From: Marinomonas sp. SBI8L
Lineage (GTDB): Bacteria > Pseudomonadota > Gammaproteobacteria > Pseudomonadales > Marinomonadaceae
Assembly (NCBI RefSeq): GCF_001624705.1
Contig: NZ_JSEO01000001.1
Coordinates: 124,001 to 188,000 of the forward strand
Length of the DNA: 64,000 nt
Direction of reading: 5' to 3'
Shown: positions 8,682 through 23,623 of the stretch, one piece after another
Layout of the letters: the number at the start of each line of letters is the position of its first letter
Position numbering within the stretch: the first letter of the stretch is position 1
The notes under the pieces: model-generated
What the model saw: only the letters and a program-made list of their open reading frames with translations
Told to the model about the DNA's origin: nothing
Databases searched by the model: none
Position numbers and translations under genes: made by a program

Positions 8682-10316
8682 ATGTTTAATGCATTAAATA
8701 ATATTCAAATACGTTACAAGCTTTGGGCCATCATAGTACTGATGTCGTTAGGTACTTCAGCCTTAATAGGCGTTTCGCTTTACTCCCTTTATATGACCCA
8801 ATTTCAAGACAGGCAAGATAGAACCAAGGATTTGGTCGAAGTCGCACACAGCACACTAAATCACTATTACCAAAACGCCCTAAAACAAGGAACCAGCCAA
8901 GACTTAGCCAAACAGGAAGCGTTTGAGGTTATTAGAGAGCTACGTTACGAAGGCAAAGAGTACTTCTGGATAAATGACATGAACTCCACCATGTTAATGC
9001 ACCCTATTACTCCGGCTCTCGAAGGCAAAGATATGAGCCAATTTGAAGATGTGAATGGGGTGAGAGTCTTTGCAGAATTCTTAAAAGTCGTCGAAAAAGA
9101 CGGTGCAGGTTTTGTCGATTACATGTGGCCCAAAGCAGGTGAAACAGACGCTACCGCTAAAAACGCCTATGTGAAAGCCTTTGAGCCTTGGAACATTATT
9201 ATCGGTACGGGTGTTTATCTGGACGCCTTACATCAGCAGTTCTTCCATAATCTCATACGTTTTGGCATTGCGGTTATCCTACTGACGCTTTTCATCGGTG
9301 GTACCGCCCTATTCATCATCTATTTAGTCACCTCTCGGGTCATTATGCTTAAAGACATTATGTTAAGTGTTGCCGAGTCAGGAGATCTAACCCAACGTGT
9401 TGATTTTTCGAGCAAAGATGAACTTGGTGTAATGGCCTCGTCTTATAATCAAATGATGGAATCCTTCCAACAAATAGTAAACAAGGTCGGCAGCTCTAGT
9501 TCTCAGCTTGATCATATCGTAGTGCAGTCAAACCAGATCAGCGACAAGACCACACATGGGGTTGAAACCCAACTTAAAGAAACCGAACAAACCGCCAGTG
9601 CTATGCTGCAAATGGCGGCCAGTGCTCAACAAGCTAATGACATTTCCGCCGAGGCAAGTAATAAGGCTCAAGAAGTACAACAACAATCAAAACAAGGTCT
9701 AGCCATTATCACCAGCTCCAACGATAGCATTAAAGGCTTGGCTGAAAATGTCGCCCATGCCACCAACTCTATTCACCAACTTAGAAACAATGTGATGAAT
9801 ATCGAAACCGTGCTTGAGGTAATAGGTCAGGTATCCGATCAAACCAACCTTCTCGCCTTAAATGCCGCTATTGAAGCTGCAAGAGCGGGAGAACAAGGAC
9901 GAGGCTTTGCCGTTGTAGCGGATGAAGTCAGGCACCTAGCTCAAAGATCACAAGGCTCTGCAGTTGAGATTCAAGACATGATAGAAAGTTTGAGGAACCA
10001 AACACTGGCCACGGTAGATATCATGGAAAAAGCACAGACCATGGCCCAAGAAGGGGTTGAGCAAGCTGTGCAGGCAGGCACAAGCTTCTCAGATATTAAC
10101 CATGGCATCAAAGAGATCTCACACTTAAACCAGCAGATCACCTTAGCCTCCCATGAGCAAACCCAAGTGGCCGAAGAGATTAGCCGTAACATAAACAACA
10201 TTAATTCGGTGACTGAAGAGACCTCTCAAGACAATAAGGCGATGGAAAGCAACATCGTAGAATTAAAACAATGCGCTGGCCAACTGAGAAACTTAATCAC
10301 TGAATTCTCAACCTAG
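8682..10316 (+). CDS. Methyl-accepting chemotaxis protein with Cache sensor
   Basis: Membrane chemoreceptor, 544 aa. TM1 is near 14-34, a periplasmic single-Cache domain near 36-190 ([15 protein letters not shown] ... [14 protein letters not shown]), TM2 near 192-215 and a HAMP domain to about 268. The signalling domain has the highly conserved hairpin tip [22 protein letters not shown] near 385-406. Cache_2 domains of this form commonly bind small organic acids. There is no C-terminal CheR/CheB tether pentapeptide. GGATG upstream supports the start. The stop codon TAG lies inside the CCTAGG that begins a repeat fragment, so the last codons may have been reshaped by that insertion. Confidence 0.92.
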
Positions 10317-10365
10317 GTGCTTTTATCCACACGCTGAGGCGGGAGGACTTAATCGTAGGCTCCCA
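10310..10365 (+). repeat. Right-end fragment of the dispersed MITE-like element
   Basis: About 55 bases closely match the right end of the full element at 18217-18509, from its internal CCTAGG to the GCAGG(T/C)TCCC tip. The left part is absent. It begins at the stop codon of the chemoreceptor gene. Confidence 0.8.
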
Positions 10366-10391
10366 CGTATTTAGAAAAGATTAAGCAAAAT

Positions 10392-10430
10392 AAAAAAAGC
10401 GGTTTATCGTATGATTAACCGCTTTTTTAT
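10392..10430 (+). terminator. Intrinsic terminator of the chemoreceptor gene
   Basis: AAAAAAGCGGTT and AACCGCTTTTTT form a long stem around a 12-base loop, followed by T-rich sequence. It stands about 75 bases after the chemoreceptor stop, with the repeat fragment in between. The rest of the 10317-10689 gap holds only the palindrome listed next. Confidence 0.85.
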
Positions 10431-10575
10431 TTTTACACTTTGTCATAGAACTTGCATAAGACTATTTTAGACAGGCAAGATAATAAGATGCGATAGCATG
10501 GCTCGATCGTTTTACCTGAGTAGATGTTTATTTGTTTGTCGATAACCAATTGCTTCCGGCGAAACATATTTTTGC

Positions 10576-10589
10576 AACACCTAGGTGTT
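10576..10589. promoter_or_regulatory. Palindrome upstream of the glycogen locus, possible operator
   Basis: AACACCTAGGTGTT is a perfect 14-bp palindrome about 100 bp before the first gene of the glycogen locus. Its position suits an operator, but no cognate regulator is adjacent. Confidence 0.4.
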
Positions 10590-10689
10590 AATAATAATGA
10601 TTGGCTAAGCACTAAACTGACGCTGACGGCAATTTTTTAGCATTGTTTTTTAGAACTTAAGCGTTTTCTCAAATCAAAGGAACTTACCA

Positions 10690-13600
10690 ATGACGTCTGT
10701 AATACCTGATAAGTTAGAAGCTCTCTATCAACATATTAATCAGGTTATTTTATCTCGGCAGCACCCTGTGACTGGTCTATTTCCTGCCAGTACCAGTATT
10801 AATAACCATGGTAACTATACTGATGCCTGGGTGAGGGATAACGTCTATAGCATTCAAGCTATTTGGGCGCTTTACCTTGCCAATAAACGTAACGGCAACC
10901 CACAAAAACGTGCCTACGAATTAGAGCACTCCTGTATCAAAATGATGCGCGGCCTTTTATCCGCCATGATGAGACAAACTCGCAAGGTAGAAGCGTTTAA
11001 GCACAGCCTTAATCCTGCTGATGCACTACACGCAAAATACGATACAAAAACTGGCTTAGAAGCCGTAGCAGATGATGCTTGGGGCCATTTGCAAATCGAT
11101 GCCACCAGCTTTTATTTATTGATGCTGGCGCAAATGACAAAAGCGGGCTCTAAGATCATTTTCTCCCGCGACGAAGTCAACTTCATCCAAAACTTAATTT
11201 ATTACATTTCAAGAACTTACCGCACTCCTGATTATGGAATTTGGGAGCGAGGCAACAAGGTAAATAATGGTAAAGCAGAGATAAACGCCAGCTCTGTCGG
11301 CATGGCAAAAGCCGCGATGGAAGCGTTAGATGGCCTTAACCTTTTCGGTGATGATGGCCCTAAGTGGGCAGAGATTCACTCCTTTGCTGATGCGGTTGCA
11401 CGAGCGTCATCTGTACTGGCGTCCTTATTGCCAAAAGAGTCCCGCTCTAAAGAGGTCGATAGCGCCCTTTTAAGTATTATTAGCTTCCCTGCTTTTGCCG
11501 TGAGAGACATTAAACTTGCTCGTAAAACACGCCTTGAAATTATCGATAAGCTAGGGGGCGAATACGGCTGTAAGCGCTTCTTACTTGATGGTCACCAAGT
11601 GGCTCTTGAAGATCAAAACCGTATTTATTATGAGTATGATGAACTCATCAACTTTGAGCATATTGAGTCTGAGTGGCCGCTTTTTTTCACTTACCTTTAT
11701 ATCGACCGCTTGTTTGCCAGAGACTGGGAGAGTGCCAATCACTATCGTCGAAAACTAGAAAGCCTGATGATAGAAAAAGATGGTCAAATGTTACTGCCTG
11801 AATTGTATTCTGTCCCCTTTGATAAGGTACAAGCAGAGAAAGAAAATCCAGGTTCTCAAACACGTGTTGCCAATGACAACCTACCGCTTGTGTGGGCCCA
11901 AAGCCTTTACCTTGTGGGTAAAATGCTTGATGAAGAGCTGATAACCACTCGCGACCTTGATCCAATCGGTTTGCATCCAAGACAGCACCAAAAGCCTGCG
12001 GTTAAGACGTCTATGGTCATTTTGGCGCAAACAGAAGCAACCAAAAAACGTCTGCTTGATGCGGGTGTTTTATGCCAAACGCTAGAAGAGATAGCCCCTC
12101 TAAAAGTCATGAGTTGTGAACAGCTTATTGATACTTATCGCCACCTTGGCGTGTCTAGCAGCTTAGGTTTAAGCGGCCGCCCTTCTCGTGCGTTAAACAG
12201 CATGGCGACCTCGCAGCTCTTTTGCATTAATGAGCAGAATTATCTGTGTTTGTCGTGGATTCAAAACGAAGACAAAGACTATCGCAAGCTAGATCCAGAC
12301 TTAATCAAAGACTATATCTGCAACGAATTAGACAGTATTCACGAGCACTGGTATTACCCAGCCAACCCTGTGTTTACCCTCTTTATTGAAGATGCCGTCG
12401 CGGCGATGAAGCACTGTGATCAGCTATTCGAGTTTCTGCGTCAATTGCAGAATCATGAAACAGAAAACTATGACGTTCTGCCTCAATCAGCTAAGAACGC
12501 TTTCAAGTCTGGCATTCGTCGCAGTATTACGCTGGATAAAGATAAAAGCCATTCTTTAGAAGCAAAGCTCAGTGTGCATCAAGCCCCTTGGCCTGTCACT
12601 CAGGACGAGTTTGAACATCCTTCTATGTCCTTAGCATTAAAGTCTAATGATGAACTATTATTGCTCCTTAACCAAAAACCAAACATGACCTTAGCGGTTG
12701 ATTGCTTGCTAGAACTGCATAAGCGCCAAGCCTTGGTGCAAACCATGCCCTTTAGCTCACCAGCGATTACCGCTTATAAAGTGCTTGAATCTGTTTACAC
12801 CCAAGCCCTATTACATGAAAACTGGGGAGCGGTGAGGCAGTTGTTCGCAATTTTAATGCAGCCAACCACAGACCTTGCGACCTATATTGCTGATATCACA
12901 GTACGCCAGCGCCAGCTTATTTTAGGCGAAGCCCATAAGGCCGAGATACATATTCGCAACCCATTACATCAAAATGAAATCTTTGAACTGATAGAGCGAA
13001 TCTCACCTAACCCCATCGCGAAGGTGATTTACCATGAACTTATCGCCATAGCCGGTGCACTCATTCGGGCAAAACCTGACTATTTCAATGGAGTTCGCAC
13101 CATTCGCTTGCATCACTTTGCACTGCTTTGCGCCAAACAAGCTGGTATGGATGAAGGAGAAGATGCGTTTTTAACTTTGGCTCAGCTTTCTCCCCACCAG
13201 CTTTATCGCATATTTGAGCGAGTATTAGATCAAAAGCATCAGGCGCATAATAAAGGTATGTCGGGCTTTTCTTACGGAGAAATGTTCAGCCAAGAGAGAG
13301 ATGAAGATGAGCTAGATATGACAGATCTAGACTGGTTTGATTGGCGTTTAGAGCAAGGTATGATCACCAAGCTACCAGAAACCTTCTTAACCAAAATATG
13401 GTCTGGCCTTAAACATGCAAACCATATTATTTTTGGTGATAAACAAAGTAATACCGTGTTGGATTGCCAGCTTACCTTAAAGTCTATGACCGCAGGGGAA
13501 GATACTTTCGCCCTTTTAATTGAACGTTTAACCTATGACATTCACCCAAGCTGGTACAAGAGCCTGATATTTGAAGCATTAAATGCTTACTTGCTTTACT

Positions 13601-13809
13601 GTGAGACACACCCTGACTGTACTTTCGAAGCCGATGTAAATCTGCCACTGATTGTCAGCCATTGCGTAGAAGAATTTGTACGTCAAAATAGCCATCATGA
13701 TTACTCATTGGCAGAAGAAGAGAATGCCGCTTTAATCGAATTTGCCCAACTTCCACCAAGCAAAATCAACCAGTATTTATTGCTTTCTGTGGCAGCGCTA
13801 CATGGTTAG
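10690..13809 (+). CDS. Phosphorylase kinase alpha/beta subunit-like protein (GH15-related)
   Basis: 1039-aa cytoplasmic protein resembling the regulatory alpha/beta subunits of eukaryotic glycogen phosphorylase kinase. The N-terminal half is a GH15-like alpha/alpha barrel with NYTDAWVRDNVYSIQAIWAL near residues 38-57 and the PHK-type stretch VANDNLPLVWAQSLYLVG near 395-412. A middle segment has the PHK-like GVSSSLGLSGRPSRALNSMA near 495-514. The remaining 500 residues are helical and not recognised. Bacterial homologues exist but their role is not settled; binding a glucan or regulating glycogen turnover is inference. AAGGA supports the start. It leads a locus with glgB and glgX; no protein kinase or glycogen phosphorylase gene is nearby. 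Confidence 0.82.
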   Translation: MTSVIPDKLEALYQHINQVILSRQHPVTGLFPASTSINNHGNYTDAWVRDNVYSIQAIWALYLANKRNGNPQKRAYELEHSCIKMMRGLLSAMMRQTRKVEAFKHSLNPADALHAKYDTKTGLEAVADDAWGHLQIDATSFYLLMLAQMTKAGSKIIFSRDEVNFIQNLIYYISRTYRTPDYGIWERGNKVNNGKAEINASSVGMAKAAMEALDGLNLFGDDGPKWAEIHSFADAVARASSVLASLLPKESRSKEVDSALLSIISFPAFAVRDIKLARKTRLEIIDKLGGEYGCKRFLLDGHQVALEDQNRIYYEYDELINFEHIESEWPLFFTYLYIDRLFARDWESANHYRRKLESLMIEKDGQMLLPELYSVPFDKVQAEKENPGSQTRVANDNLPLVWAQSLYLVGKMLDEELITTRDLDPIGLHPRQHQKPAVKTSMVILAQTEATKKRLLDAGVLCQTLEEIAPLKVMSCEQLIDTYRHLGVSSSLGLSGRPSRALNSMATSQLFCINEQNYLCLSWIQNEDKDYRKLDPDLIKDYICNELDSIHEHWYYPANPVFTLFIEDAVAAMKHCDQLFEFLRQLQNHETENYDVLPQSAKNAFKSGIRRSITLDKDKSHSLEAKLSVHQAPWPVTQDEFEHPSMSLALKSNDELLLLLNQKPNMTLAVDCLLELHKRQALVQTMPFSSPAITAYKVLESVYTQALLHENWGAVRQLFAILMQPTTDLATYIADITVRQRQLILGEAHKAEIHIRNPLHQNEIFELIERISPNPIAKVIYHELIAIAGALIRAKPDYFNGVRTIRLHHFALLCAKQAGMDEGEDAFLTLAQLSPHQLYRIFERVLDQKHQAHNKGMSGFSYGEMFSQERDEDELDMTDLDWFDWRLEQGMITKLPETFLTKIWSGLKHANHIIFGDKQSNTVLDCQLTLKSMTAGEDTFALLIERLTYDIHPSWYKSLIFEALNAYLLYCETHPDCTFEADVNLPLIVSHCVEEFVRQNSHHDYSLAEEENAALIEFAQLPPSKINQYLLLSVAALHG

Positions 13810-13812
13810 CAC

Positions 13813-13845
13813 GCATCAGCCTTAACCCTTGATTAAGGGTGATGC
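13813..13845 (+). terminator. Hairpin between the PHK-like gene and glgB
   Basis: Nested inverted repeats: inner ACCCTT-GATT-AAGGGT and outer GCATC/GATGC, followed by TTTCA. With only a short T tract it may reduce rather than end transcription, or act as an mRNA processing site between the two genes. Confidence 0.4.
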
Positions 13846-13872
13846 TTTCAGATTTAACAGTTGGAGATAGAA

Positions 13873-16047
13873 ATGGATTTACTAGATGATTTGCAACAAG
13901 CCAGATGTGCTGATCCCTTTGCTTGTCTTGGATTACAAGACAACTCAAAGACTAAAGGGTTAAGTCTCACGGTTTGGCAACCTGGCGCTTTGGCGATTGA
14001 TATCCTCGCCCTTGAAGACGACACGTTACTAGGCACCATGGTAAGTAAAGATGATAACGGCCTTTTTTACCTAGACTGGCCTGAGCGAAAAGAGCGTTTT
14101 CATTATCGCCTTAAGATCCAATATCAAGATCATGAACTGATTCGCCTCGACCCCTATCAATTCACAGATACCACCTTTAATGATGTACCGCACCACAGTG
14201 CTACTATGTATCTTAATCAGGGGGCTAATCCCGCTTTCTGTCAGGTTAGTGATGAACTTAGAATCGATGGCACTCGCTTTTGTGTGTATGCCCCAGCTGC
14301 TCGCTCTATTAGTGTGGTGGGGGACTTTAATGCTTGGGATGGCCGTGCTCATCCTATGGCCAGCAGCGGCGAAGGTCTATGGCGTTTATTTATTCCAGAC
14401 GTGGGCACAGGTCAAAAGTACAAATATGAAATAAGAGATAAGCATGGGGAACTCATTCCTCATAAAACAGACCCTTATGCCAGATTAATTGAGCAATACC
14501 CTTCTTTTTCCAGTGTAACTTGGGATAACGGACAATATGCTTGGCAAGACAAAAGCTGGATGTCCCAAGAAAAGCCTGATCATTACCACAAGGCAATGAG
14601 TATCTATGAAGTGCATTTAGGCTCTTGGCGTCGCAAACATGGACAGCCTTTGACCTTTCGTGAGCATGCTGACGAACTGGTAAATTATGTAAAAGAGATG
14701 GCCTACACCCATGTAGAGTTATTACCTGTGTCCGAGCATCCGTTTGATGGCTCCTGGGGTTATCAGCCGGTTGGGCTTTATGCGGTAACCTCTCGCTTTG
14801 GTAACCCTGATGACTTTAAGTTCTTAGTGGATAAATTCCACCAAGCAGGCATAGGTGTGATTGTCGATTGGGTACCTGCACACTTCCCGGCAGACAGCCA
14901 TGGCTTAGCCAACTTTGATGGGGATAAGCAGTACGAATACCCAGATCCTAAAAAAGGTTTTCACCCTGAATGGCAATCTTTAATCTATGACTTTGGTAAA
15001 GAGCATGTGGTGAACTACCTCATCAGTAATGCGGTTTACTGGTTAGAAGAATTCCATATTGATGGTTTACGAGTCGATGCTGTCGCCTCTATGTTGTATC
15101 TGGATTACTCACGAGAAGAAGGGGAATGGATTCCTAATGTGGATGGTGGTAATCATAACTACGAAGCCATTAGCTTTTTACGTCGCCTTAATGAAACCAT
15201 TTACCTCAACCATCCTCGCTGCTTTACCGTAGCGGAAGAGTCTACCGCCTTTGCTGGTGTCTCAAAGCCTACCTACCTTGATGGGCTTGGTTTTGGTTTT
15301 AAATGGAATATGGGCTGGATGAATGACTCCCTTCAATACATATCTAAAGATCCAATTCACCGTCAATATCACCATGGAGAAATGACCTTCTCCTTAGCCT
15401 ATGCCTTCGACGAGCAGTTTGTATTGCCCTTGTCTCATGATGAAGTGGTACATGGTAAAGGCTCTATGCTAACCAAGATGCCAGGGGATACTTGGCAACA
15501 GTTCGCTAACCTGAGAGCCTTTACGGCTTATATGTATTTCCATCCGGGTAAGAAGCTTAATTTCATGGGTAATGAACTTGCTCAAGGTAGAGAGTGGAAT
15601 CATGATACGAGTCTAGATTGGCACTTATTAGACATAGATTACCACCAAGCTCAACAGTCCCTTTGCCGAGACCTTAACCAGCTTTACCAAGATGAAGCCG
15701 CATTGCATTACGACCATAGTTATCAAGGCTTTGAGTGGATAAGCTATGATGATAAAGGCAACAGCATTCTAAGCTTTATCCGCCGCGCCAAAGACTCTGA
15801 TGAAAAGATAGTCGTACTCATCAATTTCACGCCAAACCCACACAATGAATACCGAGTGGGTGTGCCTGACGAAGGTGAGTATCAAATGGTATTTAATACG
15901 GATGCTGAGCACTATAAAGGTAGTCAGTACCCAGTTCCGACAAGTTGTAACACAGACGCTATTGCGAGCCATGGTAAAGATCAAAGCCTTTGCCTACAGG
16001 TTCCGCCTCTTGCAGCAATTGCGCTTAAGCTTAAGCTTAAGGCTTAG
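13873..16047 (+). CDS. glgB: 1,4-alpha-glucan branching enzyme GlgB
   Basis: Creates alpha-1,6 branches in glycogen (GH13 family), 724 aa, normal length. An N-terminal beta-sandwich is followed by a CBM48 domain (about 125-215, VVGDFNAWDGRAHPM) and the GH13 barrel. Catalytic residues visible are nucleophile D402 in DGLRVDAVAS, the acid/base Glu at 455/456 in VAEEST and transition-state D523 in SHDEVVHGKGS. The ATG at 13873 is preceded by GGAG; a TTG at 13861 would add four residues. It lies 63 bp after the PHK-like gene and 73 bp before glgX, same strand. Confidence 0.96.
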   Translation: MDLLDDLQQARCADPFACLGLQDNSKTKGLSLTVWQPGALAIDILALEDDTLLGTMVSKDDNGLFYLDWPERKERFHYRLKIQYQDHELIRLDPYQFTDTTFNDVPHHSATMYLNQGANPAFCQVSDELRIDGTRFCVYAPAARSISVVGDFNAWDGRAHPMASSGEGLWRLFIPDVGTGQKYKYEIRDKHGELIPHKTDPYARLIEQYPSFSSVTWDNGQYAWQDKSWMSQEKPDHYHKAMSIYEVHLGSWRRKHGQPLTFREHADELVNYVKEMAYTHVELLPVSEHPFDGSWGYQPVGLYAVTSRFGNPDDFKFLVDKFHQAGIGVIVDWVPAHFPADSHGLANFDGDKQYEYPDPKKGFHPEWQSLIYDFGKEHVVNYLISNAVYWLEEFHIDGLRVDAVASMLYLDYSREEGEWIPNVDGGNHNYEAISFLRRLNETIYLNHPRCFTVAEESTAFAGVSKPTYLDGLGFGFKWNMGWMNDSLQYISKDPIHRQYHHGEMTFSLAYAFDEQFVLPLSHDEVVHGKGSMLTKMPGDTWQQFANLRAFTAYMYFHPGKKLNFMGNELAQGREWNHDTSLDWHLLDIDYHQAQQSLCRDLNQLYQDEAALHYDHSYQGFEWISYDDKGNSILSFIRRAKDSDEKIVVLINFTPNPHNEYRVGVPDEGEYQMVFNTDAEHYKGSQYPVPTSCNTDAIASHGKDQSLCLQVPPLAAIALKLKLKA

Positions 16048-16120
16048 CGAAGCAATCCTTGTACAGGCCCTTTTCAATGAAAAGGGCAAACAAGCCAGCA
16101 AGGATAAAACAGGTAGATAA

Positions 16121-18208
16121 ATGCAGAACCAAAAACCTCAAAACCAGTATATTCAAACACCCGGGCACCCTCACCCACTGGGAGCAAGCCTCACTGAGAC
16201 AGGTGTCAATTTTGCGATTTACTCTCATCACGCCAAACAAGTTAGCCTTTGTTTGTTTGCTTCAGACGATCAAGAAAGCGAGCTCCAAATAGCCCTCAAG
16301 CAAAAGACACAAGGTATTTGGCATGCAGAGATACACGGTCTAAAAGACGGCCAATTGTATGGCTATCGTATTGATGGGGAGTTTAATCCCAAAGAGCAGC
16401 ACCTCTTTAATCCTCATAAGTTGCTACTCGATCCTTATGCGAAAAAGCTCAGCGGCAAGCTCCATTGGCATCCAGATCAAAGCGCTATGCTAAAGACAGG
16501 CACAATGAATACGCAAGATTCAGCTCACTCAGTACCTAAATGCATTGTTAGCCAGCAAGGTGAAAAAGCCACGCAAGCCCTTAGTAAAAAGATAAAAGCA
16601 GAAAGTCGTAGTCTTTACGAACTCCATATTAAAGGTTTTAGCCAACAGCTAGACATAGATGAGAGACTCAAAGGTAAGTACCTAGGCCTCATTGAGCCTA
16701 AAAGCCTAGCGCATCTAAAAGCCTTAGGGGTTACCAGCTTACAAATAATGCCTTGCTTCGCCTTTGCCAGTGAGCTGCGCTTACAAGCGCTCGGGCTTAC
16801 AAACTATTGGGGCTACAACCCAATCAACTTTTTCACACCTGATTATGAGTATGCCATTGAAGATCCTGTGGCCGAATTTAAGCTCATGGTAGAAGGCTTA
16901 CATAAAGCAGGCTTTGAGGTCATCTTAGATGTGGTTTATAACCACACCTACGAAGGGGAGCTAGACCAAGCAAATGTCAGCTTTAAGGGAATCGATAACA
17001 AGAGCTACTACCGCTCAGAACAAGGTGAATATTTAAACTTCACAGGCTGCGGCAACTGTTTTGATACTTACCACCCAAAGAGCATTCAGCTCATTATGGA
17101 CAGCATGCGTTATTGGCTAGAAGTAATGGGAGTAGATGGTTTCCGCTTTGACCTTGGGGTCGATCTTGGCCGAACTCAACATGGCTTTGATAGCCGAGCG
17201 CCTTTATTAAGCGCCATGCTACAAGACCCTATCATCTCACAAGCTTGTCTCATTTCTGAACCTTGGGATATAGGACCAGATGGCTATCAACTCGGCCAAT
17301 TCCCGACTACCTTTTTAGAATGTAATGATAAATACAGAGATAACATCAAACGCTTTTGGCGTGGAGATACAGCCCAAGTGCAAGAGTTTGCAACACGCAT
17401 TATGGGGTCTCGAGATATCTTTCATAAAGGTCATAAAAGCGCGGTGCAGTCGGTTAACTATGTCTGCTATCACGATGGTTTTACCTTACACGATTTAGTG
17501 AGCTATGAGAGTCGACACAACCTCGCCAACCAAGAGAGTAACCGTGATGGTCATGGGGAAAATATTAGTCGAAACTTTGGTCATGAAGGGGAAACCGACA
17601 AGGATCAAATTAACCAAGAGCGTCTCAATCAGCAAAGCTGCTTGATCGCTACTCTCCTTTTAAGCCAAGGCACGCCTCACATTTTAGCAGGGGATGAGCT
17701 ATCCAATACGCAAATGGGCAATAACAACGCCTATTGCCAAGATAATGAAATCTCTTGGTTAGATTGGAAAACATCAGCAAAGCGCAATCTGCTAGAAAGC
17801 CAAATAAGTCAGCTTTTAGCCCTGAGAAAGCAGCATCCAATTTTGGCCGAATGCCGCCTTGAAGATGACGCGCTTTTTCATCATGACATTAAAGACAATG
17901 TTATCTGGCTCAATCAAAAAAACGAACCAATGACACATGATGATTGGCACCAAGAAGACAGAGATTTTATCTCTTTGATTCTTGAGAGGCGCAAGGATGC
18001 AGGTAGCTTAGACAGGCTCTGGTTAGGCTTTTATCGAGGCGGCCTGGTTAATGCACCATCTGATAAAGGAAATCGTTTAGCTGACTCACCGCTTGAAATA
18101 CCACTCAAATGGCAAACTAAATTGCTCTTTGGCACTCAAGGTGTAAGTCTGGATGACACTAGCCTTAAGTGTGCTCATGCATCTGTTTTTGTGGCCCAAC
18201 TAAGCTAA
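16121..18208 (+). CDS. glgX: Glycogen debranching enzyme GlgX
   Basis: Isoamylase-type GH13 enzyme that removes alpha-1,6 side chains from limit dextrin, 695 aa (E. coli GlgX is about 657). The N-terminal CBM48 domain begins TPGHPHPLGASLTETGVNF. Catalytic residues: D344 in DGFRFDLGVD, E380 in ISEPWDIGPDGYQ, D452 in CYHDGFTLHDL. The isoamylase-type VVYNHTYEG region is also present. Last gene of the locus; glgA, glgC and glgP are not in the window and must lie elsewhere or be missing. A full mobile-element-like repeat starts nine bases after its stop. Confidence 0.93.
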   Translation: MQNQKPQNQYIQTPGHPHPLGASLTETGVNFAIYSHHAKQVSLCLFASDDQESELQIALKQKTQGIWHAEIHGLKDGQLYGYRIDGEFNPKEQHLFNPHKLLLDPYAKKLSGKLHWHPDQSAMLKTGTMNTQDSAHSVPKCIVSQQGEKATQALSKKIKAESRSLYELHIKGFSQQLDIDERLKGKYLGLIEPKSLAHLKALGVTSLQIMPCFAFASELRLQALGLTNYWGYNPINFFTPDYEYAIEDPVAEFKLMVEGLHKAGFEVILDVVYNHTYEGELDQANVSFKGIDNKSYYRSEQGEYLNFTGCGNCFDTYHPKSIQLIMDSMRYWLEVMGVDGFRFDLGVDLGRTQHGFDSRAPLLSAMLQDPIISQACLISEPWDIGPDGYQLGQFPTTFLECNDKYRDNIKRFWRGDTAQVQEFATRIMGSRDIFHKGHKSAVQSVNYVCYHDGFTLHDLVSYESRHNLANQESNRDGHGENISRNFGHEGETDKDQINQERLNQQSCLIATLLLSQGTPHILAGDELSNTQMGNNNAYCQDNEISWLDWKTSAKRNLLESQISQLLALRKQHPILAECRLEDDALFHHDIKDNVIWLNQKNEPMTHDDWHQEDRDFISLILERRKDAGSLDRLWLGFYRGGLVNAPSDKGNRLADSPLEIPLKWQTKLLFGTQGVSLDDTSLKCAHASVFVAQLS

Positions 18209-18216
18209 GGCGCTCT

Positions 18217-18509
18217 CTAGGGAACCTACGATTAAGTCACCTCTTCTCAGTCTTTTCAGAAAAAGCGTCAAGCAAGGCGTCACTTTGACGTAATGTAGGC
18301 ACCTTTCAAAAAGGGACAACACAGGGTGACGCTTTTTCTGAAATGCCGTTTAGGTATTCTTCAAAGACCCGAAGGGCGTGGTCTAAAAGCCCTATCTTTA
18401 AGTTGAGGGCCTTATCAATAGAATAACTATTAAGTTACGCCCCTCGCCATAAACCTAGGCGCTTTTATCCACACGCTGAGGCGGGAGGACTTATTCGCAG
18501 GTTCCCTAG
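18217..18509. mobile_element. MITE-like non-autonomous element, copy 1
   Basis: About 293 bp with no credible gene. Left tip CTAGGGAACCTACGATTAAG and the reverse complement of the right tip, CTAGGGAACCTGCGAATAAG, form a roughly 20-bp terminal inverted repeat. Both ends carry TA, consistent with TA target duplication as in Tc1/IS630-type transposition. A second internal inverted repeat (CAGAAAAAGCGTCA and TGACGCTTTTTCTG) lies around 18250 and 18330. A full-length relative is at 62711-62979. No transposase with matching ends is in the window. Confidence 0.8.
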
Positions 18510-18560
18510 AATAGAAAGCTAAAATAAAGAGCAAAAAAGCAGAGAGAGAAAGGAAAGACT

Positions 18561-18582
18561 GAGCCAGTGAGTTCACTGGCTC
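18561..18582 (-). terminator. Hairpin after the ABC exporter gene
   Basis: GAGCCAGTG-AGTT-CACTGGCTC, a perfect 9-bp stem 29 bases beyond the exporter stop. Only a pyrimidine-rich tail, not a clean T run, follows on the minus strand, so termination is moderately supported. Confidence 0.5.
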
Positions 18583-18610
18583 TTAAAAGAAAGAAGCCTA
18601 ATAAAGAGCA

Positions 18611-20368
18611 CTAAGCATGCTGAAATTGCAGCTTGGCTAACTTGGCATAAAGCGGTGAGTTTTCTAACAACTGGGCATGAGTACCTTGAGCCACCAGCTT
18701 GCCTTGCTCCATCAGAATAATACGATCGGCATTCACCACAGTAGACAGCCTATGGGCGATAATTAAACTGGTTCGACCCTGCATTAAATGCTCAAGCGCT
18801 TGCTGTACATGATACTCACTTTGCGCATCTAGCGCACTGGTTGCCTCATCAAGTAACAATATTGGCGCATCTTTTAAAATCGCTCTAGCAATGGCAATTC
18901 GCTGCATTTGACCACCTGAGAGCTTCACCCCATTTTCACCAAGATCAGAGTCATAGCCTTCTGGTAACTGCATAATAAAATCATGGGCAAAGGCCGCTTT
19001 AGCTGCTTTTACTATATCTTCCATATTGGCTTCAGGTCTTGCATAGGCAATGTTCTGAGCCACACTAATATCGAATAAGGCTGCATGTTGCGGCACTATG
19101 GCCATATTTTCACGTAAAGCACTTAAGCCAAGCTGACGAATATTTTGCCCCAATAGACTGATAGCCCCAGAGTCCACATCATAAAAACGTAACAAGAGTT
19201 CTAACAAGGTAGATTTACCTGCACCTGATGGCCCCACCAGCGCGACTCTCTCGCCTTTTCGCAGACTTAAATCTAACTCACTAATAGCCTTATCAGATCG
19301 ACTTGAATAAGCGAAATCCACCTGATTAAAGCGAATCATTTCTTCACCAAGTCCAGTACCATGCACATCTTCAATTTGTGTCGGCGTATCGGCATTTGGG
19401 GGGATTTTATTAGGTGTATGTAGTAGCTCTATTAAACGCTCAGCAGCCCCTGCTGCACGCTGTAATTCACCCATCACCTCTGAGATAGCAGCCACCGCAG
19501 CGGCCACCATAATGGCGTAGAACAAGAAGCTCGCAAGCTCACCACCTGTAATGCGCCCTTGCATGACATCATTACCACCAACCCACAACATAGCAGCAAT
19601 GGCCGACATAGAAAGTACGATGACAACAACAGAGAGGAAGGCCCTTTGCCGAATACGTTGTACGCTTACATTAAAAGCACGTTCGACCACATTAGAAAAA
19701 AGCCCGATATCATGATCTTGCTGATTATGACTTTGCACGACCTTGATATGACGGAGAGACTCGCCCACATGGCCACCCACCTTGGCAATTTCATCTTGTG
19801 TATCACGCGAAAGTTTTCGTACTTTACGACCAAAAAATAGAATAGGCACTATCACCAAGGGCACGCTCAAAAGCACAATAAAGGTGAGTTTGGCATTGGT
19901 CACCATCAAGAGCACGCAGCCACCAATCAGCATCAAAATATTACGCAGAGCAATGGAAACCGATGAACCAATTACGCTCTGTAAAAGTGTCGTATCCGTG
20001 GTAATACGAGATTGAATCTCACCACTTTTTTGCTCTTCAAAAAAAGCAGGGTGCAAATTAATCAAATGAGAGAACACAGCTTTACGAAGATCAGCAACTA
20101 CCTTCTCACCAATCCAAGACACTAGAAAAAACCGAATAAAGCTACCTAATGCTAATAAACCCACCAAGCCCAAAAAGATGGCTATGCTGTCCAATAAGGC
20201 TTCACTCGAACCTGATGCGATACCATTATCAATAAGATATCTCACCCCTTGCCCTAAACTTAAAGTCACCCCAGCTGTCACAATGAGGGCCAAACTGGCA
20301 AAAAAGATTTGCTTCTTATAAGGCAGAATAAAAGGCAATAAGTGGCTCAAACTTGCGGTATTTTTCAT
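18611..20368 (-). CDS. MsbA-related ABC exporter (fused membrane and ATPase domains)
   Basis: Homodimeric ABC half-transporter, 585 aa. A six-helix membrane domain (about 15-310) is fused to an ATPase domain with Walker A GPSGAGKS (379-386), signature LSGGQMQ (483-489), Walker B ILLLDE (503-508) and an H-loop in IIAHRLSTV. It resembles the MsbA-related proteobacterial group rather than MsbA itself; MsbA is usually next to lpxK, which is absent here. Likely a lipid or drug exporter in the inner membrane. It is divergent from srkA. Confidence 0.88.
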   Translation of the reverse strand: MKNTASLSHLLPFILPYKKQIFFASLALIVTAGVTLSLGQGVRYLIDNGIASGSSEALLDSIAIFLGLVGLLALGSFIRFFLVSWIGEKVVADLRKAVFSHLINLHPAFFEEQKSGEIQSRITTDTTLLQSVIGSSVSIALRNILMLIGGCVLLMVTNAKLTFIVLLSVPLVIVPILFFGRKVRKLSRDTQDEIAKVGGHVGESLRHIKVVQSHNQQDHDIGLFSNVVERAFNVSVQRIRQRAFLSVVVIVLSMSAIAAMLWVGGNDVMQGRITGGELASFLFYAIMVAAAVAAISEVMGELQRAAGAAERLIELLHTPNKIPPNADTPTQIEDVHGTGLGEEMIRFNQVDFAYSSRSDKAISELDLSLRKGERVALVGPSGAGKSTLLELLLRFYDVDSGAISLLGQNIRQLGLSALRENMAIVPQHAALFDISVAQNIAYARPEANMEDIVKAAKAAFAHDFIMQLPEGYDSDLGENGVKLSGGQMQRIAIARAILKDAPILLLDEATSALDAQSEYHVQQALEHLMQGRTSLIIAHRLSTVVNADRIILMEQGKLVAQGTHAQLLENSPLYAKLAKLQFQHA

Positions 20369-20535
20369 TAATAATCCTTACTCTATTTCCCAAACTCTCA
20401 ATTAGATAAAACACTCTTTAGGGAAGGTATGATTAAAGTAACAAACACTGGCCTTAATACCTATGGGCTTGCTACTCTAGGCAGTCTTTACCTTGTTATT
20501 TCCTTGTTTTATTTTTTACGCTAACTGAGCCTCCT

Positions 20536-21519
20536 ATGTCTGATCATCCCTTTTCTGCCCTCACTCCAGATTTTGTCATTAATGCTGTTGAAAGCATTGG
20601 CCTCTGGTGCGATGCCAGAATCTATCCACTTAACAGTTATGAGAATCGGGTTTATCAGGTGGGCATTGAAGATAGCACCCCCTTAGTCGCAAAATTTTAT
20701 CGCCCTAACCGCTGGAGCAAAGAACAAATTCTAGAAGAGCATGACGCACTTTTTGCTCTCGCTCAGGCTGATATCAAGGTGATTGCCCCTAAGCAGATTG
20801 AAGGAGACAGCCTGTTTTTACATGAGGGTTTCTACTTCTGCGTTTATGACAAACTTATCGGCAAAGCACCCGATGCAGATAATATGGACCACCTTTTTGT
20901 TACCGGTGAAACCTTGGCTCAAATCCACCAAGGGCTACAAGCAGCAGATTTTAAAACACGTCCCGCTATGGCGCCCGTTGCTGACTTCACCAAGGCAATA
21001 ACGCAATTAAAAGAGTGCCAGCATTTACCTAAATTTCTGCATGAGAGATTGGAGAAAGTAAATGCAAAGTTATTACCTCTCATTCAAACTCAAGTTGATA
21101 AGTTTTGGCCTACTAAACAGTACCCAATTCATGGGGACTGCCACAGATCCAACTTACTCGTTGACGGATCTGATGATATCTATTTATTAGATTTTGATGA
21201 TGCGAAAACAGGCCCTGCAGTACAAGATTTATGGTTGCACCTTTCAGGTAACCTGACCCAACAAAAGCAACAATTGAGTGAGTTAATTGAAGGCTATGAA
21301 AGCTATTTTGAGTTTAATGAAAAAGAGTTGGAACTCATCGACAGTTTAAAAGCCATTCGACTAGTACAATATGCCGCTTGGTTAGATGCCCGCTGGGATG
21401 ATCCCGCCTTCCCGATGGCCTTCCCTTGGTTTAGTGGTGAAGACTATTGGCTCAACCTATTAAATGACCTAGAGCTCATCATACAAGACTGGGGCAAACT
21501 CGCTGCGCCTGCTTACTAA
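20536..21519 (+). CDS. srkA: Stress response Ser/Thr kinase SrkA (YihE/RdoA)
   Basis: Cytoplasmic protein kinase of the choline-kinase-like fold, 327 aa, matching E. coli SrkA/YihE (328 aa). K53 in LVAKFYRP is the likely ATP lysine. The catalytic loop HGDCHRSNLL gives D201 and N206, and the metal-binding LLDFDDA gives D219. In E. coli it protects against stress-induced death in the Cpx/MazEF context. In enterics srkA is followed by dsbA; here it is followed by recQ, 67 bp downstream. The ribosome site is weak. Confidence 0.92.
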   Translation: MSDHPFSALTPDFVINAVESIGLWCDARIYPLNSYENRVYQVGIEDSTPLVAKFYRPNRWSKEQILEEHDALFALAQADIKVIAPKQIEGDSLFLHEGFYFCVYDKLIGKAPDADNMDHLFVTGETLAQIHQGLQAADFKTRPAMAPVADFTKAITQLKECQHLPKFLHERLEKVNAKLLPLIQTQVDKFWPTKQYPIHGDCHRSNLLVDGSDDIYLLDFDDAKTGPAVQDLWLHLSGNLTQQKQQLSELIEGYESYFEFNEKELELIDSLKAIRLVQYAAWLDARWDDPAFPMAFPWFSGEDYWLNLLNDLELIIQDWGKLAAPAY

Positions 21520-21586
21520 TTAATAATAAGATAGCGCGATAGATTAAAAACCAATTCACACAAACATAAGACAAAATTAGCTAACT

Positions 21587-23623
21587 ATGAATCTCATACC
21601 TGCCCTACAGCAACACTTTGGATTTGATCAATTTCGTGGCGGACAAGAGCAATGTGTCCGCCAAGTTTTAGCAGGGCAATCTAGCCTAGCTATCTTTCCA
21701 ACGGGTGCAGGTAAATCCTTATGTTATCAATTTAGTGCCACTCAGCTTAGTGGTATTACACTGGTCGTATCTCCCTTGCTGGCACTCATTAAGGATCAGG
21801 TAGAGTTTCTACAAAGCAAAGGCATAGGTGCTGCCAGCTTAGACTCAAGCCAGACACCAGATCAAAATCGCGATATTATGCGCCAAGTACGTGAAGGCCA
21901 AATTAAGATACTCATGGTATCGGTAGAACGTTTTAATAATGAGAGTTTCCGTAACTTCCTACACACCCTGTCCATCTCGTTATTGGTAGTCGATGAAGCT
22001 CACTGTATTTCAGAATGGGGCCATAACTTCCGCCCTGATTATTTAAAACTCCCTGATTATCAACGCCAGTTCAACATTCCTTTGGTATTACTTTTAACCG
22101 CCACAGCGGCTCCTAAAGTAAAGCGAGATATGGCAGCAAAATTTGCCATAGACGAACAGCACATAGTGCAAACAGGCTTCTATCGTTCCAACTTGAACTT
22201 AAGTGTCTTAAGTGTCCCTCAAGTGGATAAAAAAGCAGCCTTATTAAATGCATTGAAACAACGCCTTTCGCCTCAAACAAATGAAGCAGAGCCAGCCATT
22301 GTCTATGTCACCTTGCAATATAGCGCGGAAGAAATTGCCCAATGGCTAAGAGCCAACCAAGTATCCGCTCAGGCTTACCATGCAGGATTAGATAGCGAAC
22401 GCCGTGAGCAAATCCAGCAAGATTTCATGTCAGGCAAACTCAATACCGTAGTGGCTACTATTGCCTTTGGAATGGGTATCGACAAATCCAATATTCGTCA
22501 TGTCATTCACTATGATCTACCAAAATCGATCGAAAACTATAGCCAAGAGATTGGCCGTGCAGGTCGAGATGGGCAAGCCTCAAACTGTGTCACCTTGGCA
22601 AACCTTGAAGGCCTTTCGACCTTAGAAAACTTTGTTTATGGGGATACGCCAGAACTTGAAAGCATTGCCTATTTATTAGATCTGATTGATCAACAAAGTG
22701 TGATGCAGCGTACGCTGACTTGGGAAATGCAGCTGTATGCGCTTTCTAATGAAACCAATATTCGTCAACTTCCTTTAAAAACATTGTTAGTACAACTTGA
22801 GCTGATGGGCATTATCAGCCCTAAATACGCCTATTACGCGCATTTTCGCTACAAGTTTGTCACGCCTATGGCACAAGTACTCAGTCAATTCGATGCCGAT
22901 AGATGCGCTTTTTTAATGCAGGTTTTCGAAGCGACCAAGTTCAAAAAAGTTTGGGGCGAGCCTAACTTTGAATTTTGGGCACAAGACGCTAAAGACAGAG
23001 CAATTAAAGCCCTAGATTACTTAAGTGAAAAAGGTTTGATCGAGCTAGAAACAAAACAGTTAACACAAGTTTATGAGGTATATGACCTTTCTCAGAAAGA
23101 ACAGGTTGCGGCTCAGCTTGGTGACTATTTCAAACAAAAGGAAGACGCAGAGATTGATCGAATTGCCAAGCTCATTGCCTTCTTCGAACAAGACACCTGC
23201 TTAAACAGAAGTTTGGCGCGCTATTTTGGTGATGAGAGTTTTGGAGACGAAAGTTTCGGTGATGAGAGTTTTGGAGACAAAAGCTTAAATAATGAAAGCA
23301 CTGAGAATAAAAGCATACAAACCCAATGCGGCCACTGTTCAAGTTGCTTAGGAAATAGCATAGGCAAACTTAGCGGGCGAGGTATGAATGAGAACGACAT
23401 AGACTCAGAGCAAGTTAGACAAGACCTCAGCGAACTCGCTAGCGCCTTTCAGTCAGCCCTTAAGCTTCATCCAGATAGTATGAGCCTAGATACCAAATGC
23501 CGCTTTCTCGCAGGGATCAGCACGCCTTATCTCACAAAGTGTCGAGCAAAACGTTTATCAGGTTTTGCTCGTTATCAAGATCAAAGCTATGCCAAGTTAA
23601 GGCAATTAGTAAAAGGCTTATAA
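21587..23623 (+). CDS. recQ: ATP-dependent DNA helicase RecQ
   Basis: 3'-5' DNA helicase of recombination and fork repair, 678 aa. Motif I is FPTGAGKS with K43, motif II is DEAH near 135-138, and motif VI is QEIGRAGRDGQ. The RecQ-type zinc-binding region has Cys in DTCLNRSLARYFG and CGHCSSCLG, followed by a winged-helix-like tail; an HRDC domain is not evident. Between the first Cys and the CxxC pair is an in-frame tandem repeat of GDESF (residues 548-567), longer than the usual spacing. The divergent N-terminus and missing HRDC may mean a RecQ paralogue rather than the strict E. coli orthologue. Confidence 0.88.
   Translation: MNLIPALQQHFGFDQFRGGQEQCVRQVLAGQSSLAIFPTGAGKSLCYQFSATQLSGITLVVSPLLALIKDQVEFLQSKGIGAASLDSSQTPDQNRDIMRQVREGQIKILMVSVERFNNESFRNFLHTLSISLLVVDEAHCISEWGHNFRPDYLKLPDYQRQFNIPLVLLLTATAAPKVKRDMAAKFAIDEQHIVQTGFYRSNLNLSVLSVPQVDKKAALLNALKQRLSPQTNEAEPAIVYVTLQYSAEEIAQWLRANQVSAQAYHAGLDSERREQIQQDFMSGKLNTVVATIAFGMGIDKSNIRHVIHYDLPKSIENYSQEIGRAGRDGQASNCVTLANLEGLSTLENFVYGDTPELESIAYLLDLIDQQSVMQRTLTWEMQLYALSNETNIRQLPLKTLLVQLELMGIISPKYAYYAHFRYKFVTPMAQVLSQFDADRCAFLMQVFEATKFKKVWGEPNFEFWAQDAKDRAIKALDYLSEKGLIELETKQLTQVYEVYDLSQKEQVAAQLGDYFKQKEDAEIDRIAKLIAFFEQDTCLNRSLARYFGDESFGDESFGDESFGDKSLNNESTENKSIQTQCGHCSSCLGNSIGKLSGRGMNENDIDSEQVRQDLSELASAFQSALKLHPDSMSLDTKCRFLAGISTPYLTKCRAKRLSGFARYQDQSYAKLRQLVKGL
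23228..23287 (+). repeat. In-frame tandem repeat inside recQ
   Basis: Two copies of a 30-bp unit beginning GGTGATGAGAGTTTTGGAGA, each made of two 15-bp half-units that encode GDESF or GDKSL. It keeps frame and inflates the loop between zinc-binding cysteines. Confidence 0.9.

Follow-up and report, generated by a model that had tools for sequence, protein, structure and literature searches.

A bacterial phosphorylase kinase alpha/beta-like protein with an intact GH15 active site is probably a glycogen-degrading enzyme

The large alpha and beta subunits of phosphorylase kinase (PhK) contain glucoamylase-like domains whose significance, according to a 2024 structure paper, still needs investigation (PMC10978961). 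In this paper, the catalytic pair of alpha is given as Glu185 and Glu371 and beta is described as being without some catalytic residues; activity on maltose, isomaltose or glycogen was not detected, and the CaaX motif is said to be farnesylated in human alpha and beta (PMC10978961). In the archaeon Sulfolobus acidocaldarius the gene of the GH15 glucoamylase Gaa lies in a glg cluster together with glgX, and deletion of Gaa raises glycogen, which demonstrates a GH15 glycogen route genetically (PMC8158581). In the glgBXCAP cluster of E. coli, glgB is followed by glgX. Here, we describe PHKL, our label for a PhK alpha/beta-like protein encoded in a stretch of 64,000 nucleotides (the window) from Marinomonas sp. 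SBI8L (NCBI RefSeq assembly GCF_001624705.1, contig NZ_JSEO01000001.1, positions 124,001 to 188,000). Like the archaeal gene it stands in a glg cluster with glgX, and glgB precedes glgX as in E. coli. Since its active site is intact and its neighbours are glycogen genes, PHKL is probably a working glycogen-degrading enzyme. We put a probability of roughly two in three on PHKL being a glucoamylase-type exo-enzyme that hydrolyzes glycogen in the cytoplasm and carries the whole PhK body.

PHKL had been assigned to the PHK-type GH15-like proteins in a preliminary description of the locus, and Pfam and phmmer confirm that it belongs to the PhK alpha/beta family. Both Glyco_hydro_15 (E=1.4e-72) and KPBB_C, the C-terminal domain of phosphorylase b kinase (E=2.2e-29), were matched over their cut-offs, and a phmmer comparison with the PDB sequences (E<=1) returned two distinct sequences, human PhK alpha (9.6e-166) and human PhK beta (3.4e-145). 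The combination of a GH15-like N-terminal domain and KPBB_C in one chain is that of the PhK alpha/beta (KPBB) family. PHKL can be aligned to PhK alpha/beta (human PHKA1 and PHKB; PDB 8jfk and others) along its full length, covering model residues 1-1039 with the same domain order over about 1000 residues. The half beyond residue 520, previously regarded as unassigned, aligns to the later parts of PhK alpha/beta by sequence and predicted fold and holds KPBB_C. The bacterial members are covered by GH15 and KPBB_C models that already exist and so do not form a new family. PHKL differs from the human subunits in that no cysteine of a CaaX motif is present in the last 12 residues of PHKL and six homologues (seven C-termini), and we therefore call it a homologue of PhK subunits and not a PhK subunit. 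In the predicted structure, the N-terminal domain (D1) is modeled with the (alpha/alpha)6 fold of the GH15 type (VIA-align structure comparison), like that of the glucoamylases 1lf6 (bacterial) and 1gah/3eqa (Aspergillus) and the glycosidase 5z3a-e. This fold is common to other families too, and the link to GH15 is made by the Pfam model and the fold, as a PHKL profile found no plain GH15 chain among the PDB sequences at E<=10. Confidence of the model is low (pLDDT < 50) at residues 35-42, 183-195 and 298-325, and thus also in the loop 35-43 discussed below. Compared with the GH15 glucoamylases, PHKL has about 600 extra residues of the PhK type. It is the sole GH15 match in the genome.

Conservation was analyzed in 112 bacterial sequences, consisting of the window, 98 homologues from two homologue surveys and 13 from a class-wide sample; 58 of them come from outside the Marinomonas group (Marinomonas and Maribrevibacterium), and a copy of the window (L001) and a broken gene (genome G011) were left out. 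E186 and E371 are glutamate in every sequence, W47, R49, D50, W185, R187, R296, W402 and Q404 are likewise kept in all 112, D45 is kept in 111 (His in one) and Y373 in 109 (Phe in three). PHKL hence shares the catalytic Glu pair (located via human alpha) and the neighboring Trp, Arg and Asp residues with GH15 glucoamylases. The preliminary description had named a plain glucoamylase with both Glu intact as an outcome that would contradict it, and this applies to one half: both Glu are intact, but the protein is of the full PhK type. Invariance is concentrated in D1, which is far more conserved than the remainder and contains 101 of the 114 invariant columns. Human alpha retains 91 of these 101 residues and human beta 70. 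The catalytic base is a glutamate in PHKL and a lysine in human beta. Four of the ten residues lost in alpha (T35, H40, G41 and Y43) belong to a single loop that is six residues shorter in alpha; PHKL keeps this loop, which is shortened in both human subunits. A tyrosine four positions ahead of the Trp of the Trp-x-Arg-Asp motif is also found in L148, a plain GH15 protein, and in the glucoamylase structure 1lf6, although the alignment that pairs these motifs is weak. We take it to be the equivalent of Tyr48 of the Aspergillus glucoamylase, which bonds to the catalytic base. The entry titles of the nearest GH15-like structure list the mutants Y48F, E178A and E335A made by the depositors, and our guess is that these positions equal Y43, E186 and E371 of PHKL. 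With one alpha and one beta sequence compared, the loss of loop and tyrosine is a lead and not a result.

These patterns also bear on a different role, close to the glucan-binding scaffold or regulator proposed in the preliminary description: PHKL could be a catalytically silent scaffold or sensor whose GH15 pocket binds glycogen ends, with GlgB, GlgX or glucokinase held or regulated by the domains that follow. Human alpha and beta work in this way as far as known, with no detectable hydrolysis and with a cited finding that PhK is bound by the glucoamylase inhibitor acarbose and gains kinase activity from it (PMC10978961). However, human beta, which is without the base, has lost 31 of the 101 bacterial-invariant D1 residues, whereas the bacterial proteins keep both Glu and, apart from the substitutions at D45 and Y373, the other active-site residues compared. 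Over half of PHKL lies outside D1 and is aligned to PhK, but it is D1 that is under the stronger conservation. The adjacent glgB, glgX or glk would suit a partner protein as well as an enzyme. Overall, we rank a silent scaffold second to catalysis and consider it unlikely.

The gene neighborhood was compared in 79 loci obtained from the best 80 of 138 confirmed stretches, a set that leans to close relatives for this reason; 34 loci are from the Marinomonas group and 45 from other bacteria. Flanks are unequal, reaching up to 10 kb, with less than 1.5 kb downstream in three loci. The loci L081-L099 are from the same genus and probably repeat some of the named genomes, and the 13 class-sample loci may repeat species of the 45. 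PHKL, glgB and glgX lie on one strand in all 34 loci of the Marinomonas group. The association with glgB and glgX in relatives, on which the preliminary description relied, therefore holds within this group but not beyond it, where the pair stands beside PHKL in one of 58 loci (divergently) and a glucokinase gene does so in 27. Among the 45 loci, glucokinase is found near PHKL in 21. In 17 of them it follows PHKL on the same strand, and in 15 of these 17 the two genes overlap or lie within 25 nt of each other (open reading frames (ORFs) as called); in the other four, from Saccharospirillaceae, it lies upstream within about 1 kb. In the class-wide sample KPBB_C is rare (14 of 369 genomes, the window's own included), and the other 13 loci have glucokinase adjacent in six cases and a divergent glgB-glgX in one. 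Synechococcus elongatus, included as a control, matches KPBB_C as well. All five of the 27 glucokinases that were checked against NCBIfam pass TIGR00749. The genes zwf, pgl, edd and eda occur near PHKL in 6, 6, 5 and 6 of the 45 loci, and in the window's genome the one glucokinase lies beside zwf and an eda-like gene. The recurrent metabolic neighbors of PHKL are thus enzymes of glycogen and glucose metabolism, which sets it apart from PhK alpha/beta. Mapped on a tree, adjacency to glucokinase requires six changes and adjacency to glgB-glgX two, and 30 of 64 bacterial rows have neither within 2.5 kb. Glucokinase needs free glucose, which is made by a hydrolase and not by a phosphorylase.

Within the genus, PHKL is lost together with other glycogen genes. 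An intact PHKL was found in 34 of 36 genomes, the window's own included, whereas G011 has it in pieces and G002 lacks it; GlgX and the glycogen synthase domain (GlgA) are likewise broken in G011 and missing from G002. In G011, PHKL is split into five pieces and glgX and glgA are broken (contigs C40 and C33); the glycogen pathway of this genome appears to be decaying as a unit. This co-loss and the operon with glgB and glgX in 34 of 34 loci argue against the view that PHKL hydrolyzes a different GH15-clan substrate, e.g. trehalose, isomaltose or imported maltodextrin, for which GH15 enzymes exist. Glucose from such a reaction would reach glucokinase as well, and the adjacency of that gene indicates only that glucose is made. 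PHKL gives a partial match to the GH15 trehalase model NF041084, with 27.6 bits against a cut-off of 820. We regard another substrate as improbable, more so than a scaffold.

The preliminary description was right that no glgP is adjacent, but this understates the case: neither a GT35 phosphorylase nor a TIGR02093 match was found anywhere in the window's genome assembly, which is listed as 99.98% complete. A GT35 match is present in 13 of the 36 genus genomes (11 strong, two of 88-99 bits), and 21 of the 34 with intact PHKL, the window's own included, have none. In the 21 genomes from other families of the order, PHKL was absent throughout; GlgX is matched strongly (over 500 bits) in six of them, each of which also gave a GT35 match, weak in one case. 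On the other hand, GT35 matches were obtained in 39 of the 45 non-genus genomes with PHKL (21 over 780 bits, 18 between 32 and 104 bits), which speaks against simple replacement, and we reject PHKL as a strict substitute for phosphorylase outside Marinomonas. The six without a match are L035, L037 and L039 (Gilvimarinus), L047 (Saccharospirillum) and the possibly incomplete metagenome-assembled genomes (MAGs) L051 and L063. The lack of glgP alone is not unusual, as other groups such as Vibrio and Xanthomonas were without it in a 2015 survey of gammaproteobacterial glg genes, the available part of which does not contain the word Marinomonas (PMC4301808). Two further GH13 proteins are encoded in the window's genome, below every NCBIfam cut-off at the E-value used; by eye, we would call them alpha-glucosidases.

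Taken together, the invariant GH15 site, the glucokinase and glg neighborhoods, the joint loss with glgX and glgA and the lack of a phosphorylase suggest that PHKL is a glucoamylase with glycogen as its substrate; its activity, substrate, cytoplasmic place and direction of flux are what we infer from them. PHKL would shorten the outer glycogen chains and set glucose free, using the inverting mechanism of GH15 enzymes with E186 and E371 acting as acid and base; GlgX would take off the stubs, and glucokinase would phosphorylate the glucose for the Zwf/Entner-Doudoroff route. In the window's genome PHKL would stand in for the absent glycogen phosphorylase, and in most of the other examined genomes it would run beside phosphorylase, in either case with no identifiable kinase partner. 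This suggests that some bacteria break down glycogen without phosphorylase.

The earlier statement that no kinase is adjacent is true of the PHKL operon, as domain scans that covered seven genes from 8682 to 23623 showed no kinase within it. It does not extend to the wider surroundings, since a gene for a Ser/Thr kinase of the SrkA/YihE type (NF008738) lies 2.3 kb past glgX at 20536-21519 (+). In PhK, alpha and beta are subunits of a holoenzyme with a kinase (gamma) and calmodulin (delta). PHKL could likewise be a true regulator of the PhK type that acts with a bacterial Ser/Thr kinase, e.g. this one, on GlgP, GlgX or GlgB. SrkA-like matches occur within the fetched flanks at 19 of the 34 loci of the Marinomonas group and at L041, but unrelated neighbors recur there too (chemotaxis receptor 23, ABC transporter 9, RecQ 8; flanks end at 10 kb, cutting the last ones), so that we read the recurrence as probably shared gene order and set the SrkA-like gene aside as a partner. 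The window's genome contains seven PF00069 matches, six over the cut-off, and in L134 a Pkinase-AAA protein of 1099 residues is encoded divergently beside the PHKL-Glk pair (L134:12514-15813). A protein cluster located 1.5-4 kb from PHKL in four related Saccharospirillaceae loci, one checked member of which combines DUF4032 with a lipopolysaccharide-kinase-like part, is the sole Ser/Thr-kinase-like neighbor cluster recognized over the 45 loci (some cluster representatives checked). Given also that the window's genome and 20 further genus genomes with intact PHKL gave no match to a phosphorylase, we judge a kinase-dependent regulator to be very improbable.

PHKL makes the question of the PhK glucoamylase domains directly testable, as it is a bacterial protein encoded by one gene that has the architecture of the PhK subunits, what looks like a complete active site, and a clear metabolic context. 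A quick, unrooted tree of 66 rows places human alpha and beta on the side of the four cyanobacterial rows; with two long human rows and no outgroup, the tree cannot tell which side is ancestral, and the ancestral nature proposed earlier is compatible with it but not demonstrated by it. Tentatively, and with somewhat less than even confidence, we suggest that the PhK large subunits derive from an active bacterial glucoamylase that degraded glycogen and already had the complete PhK body, or have an ancestor in common with it; in bacteria this enzyme would drive a phosphorylase-independent route from glycogen via glucose to glucose-6-phosphate. Animal alpha would then be related to it, with the body and both Glu preserved, but would have lost catalysis together with the surrounding loop that bears the Y43-equivalent Tyr and turned into a regulatory subunit; beta would have lost the base. 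In its boldest form, this reading would have animals take over a bacterial enzyme and silence it. PHKL may give an idea of the state of the animal protein before it took on a regulatory role. Among the titles listed in our literature searches, none dealt with a bacterial PhK-like protein, and neither the functional role proposed here nor the difference from human alpha was met among them. A 2003 paper reportedly deals with the glucoamylase-like domains of PhK. This paper is cited for a gene product with homology to glucoamylases in a 2010 E. coli genome paper (PMC2808357) and therefore seems to discuss some bacterial glucoamylase-like protein, so that part of the present reading may have been anticipated. 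The term phosphorylase kinase is absent from the available part of a 2024 review of prokaryotic alpha-glucan enzymes (PMC11046441).

Table 1. Features of the PHKL locus (positions in the window)
Feature	Position	Strand	Remarks
PHKL, PhK alpha/beta-like	10690..13809	+	1039 aa; ATG start, AGGA motif ahead of start
GH15 (glucoamylase-like) domain D1	10690..11964	+	codons 1-425
Loop	10792..10818	+	codons 35-43; T35/H40/G41/Y43 invariant in 112 bacterial sequences; shortened in human alpha and beta
E186 codon	11245..11247	+	aligns with human alpha Glu185, GH15 catalytic Glu
E371 codon	11800..11802	+	aligns with human alpha Glu371, GH15 catalytic Glu; Lys in human beta
KPBB_C domain	13159..13800	+	codons 824-1037, Pfam
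glgB, glycogen branching enzyme	13873..16047	+	ATG at 13873 behind GGAG likelier than TTG 13861 of the ORF tool
glgX, glycogen debranching enzyme	16121..18208	+	

The position of PHKL directly ahead of glgB and then glgX, all on the plus strand, is as described before (Table 1), and GlgB (NF003811) and GlgX (TIGR02100) score over the NCBIfam cut-offs. The locus differs from glgBXCAP of E. coli in having PHKL in front, in the lack of any glgP found in the genome and in the glycogen synthase domain being encoded on another contig (C6); glgC was not searched for. Small inverted repeats without a T-run were seen by eye between PHKL and glgB (13810-13872) and between glgB and glgX (16048-16120). 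Upstream of PHKL lies a gene for a chemotaxis receptor with a Cache domain (8682-10316, +), which is also matched in the flanks at 23 of the 34 loci of the Marinomonas group. Clustering of the neighbors over the 45 other loci gave PHKL (45), Glk (21), histidine-kinase-like (12), response-regulator-like (6) and zwf, pgl and eda (6 each), followed by smaller clusters. Ten single neighbors (amidohydrolase, DUF885, acyl-CoA synthetase-type, RoxA-like cytochrome c, aminotransferase, glutamine synthetase, Pkinase-AAA, histidine kinase, TmcA-type and GGDEF) had no common theme. The histidine-kinase-like genes, within 10 kb of PHKL in their 12 loci (e.g. L061:5795-14880), are mostly kilobases away, as are the response-regulator-like genes, and we do not read their recurrence beyond chance or local regulation.

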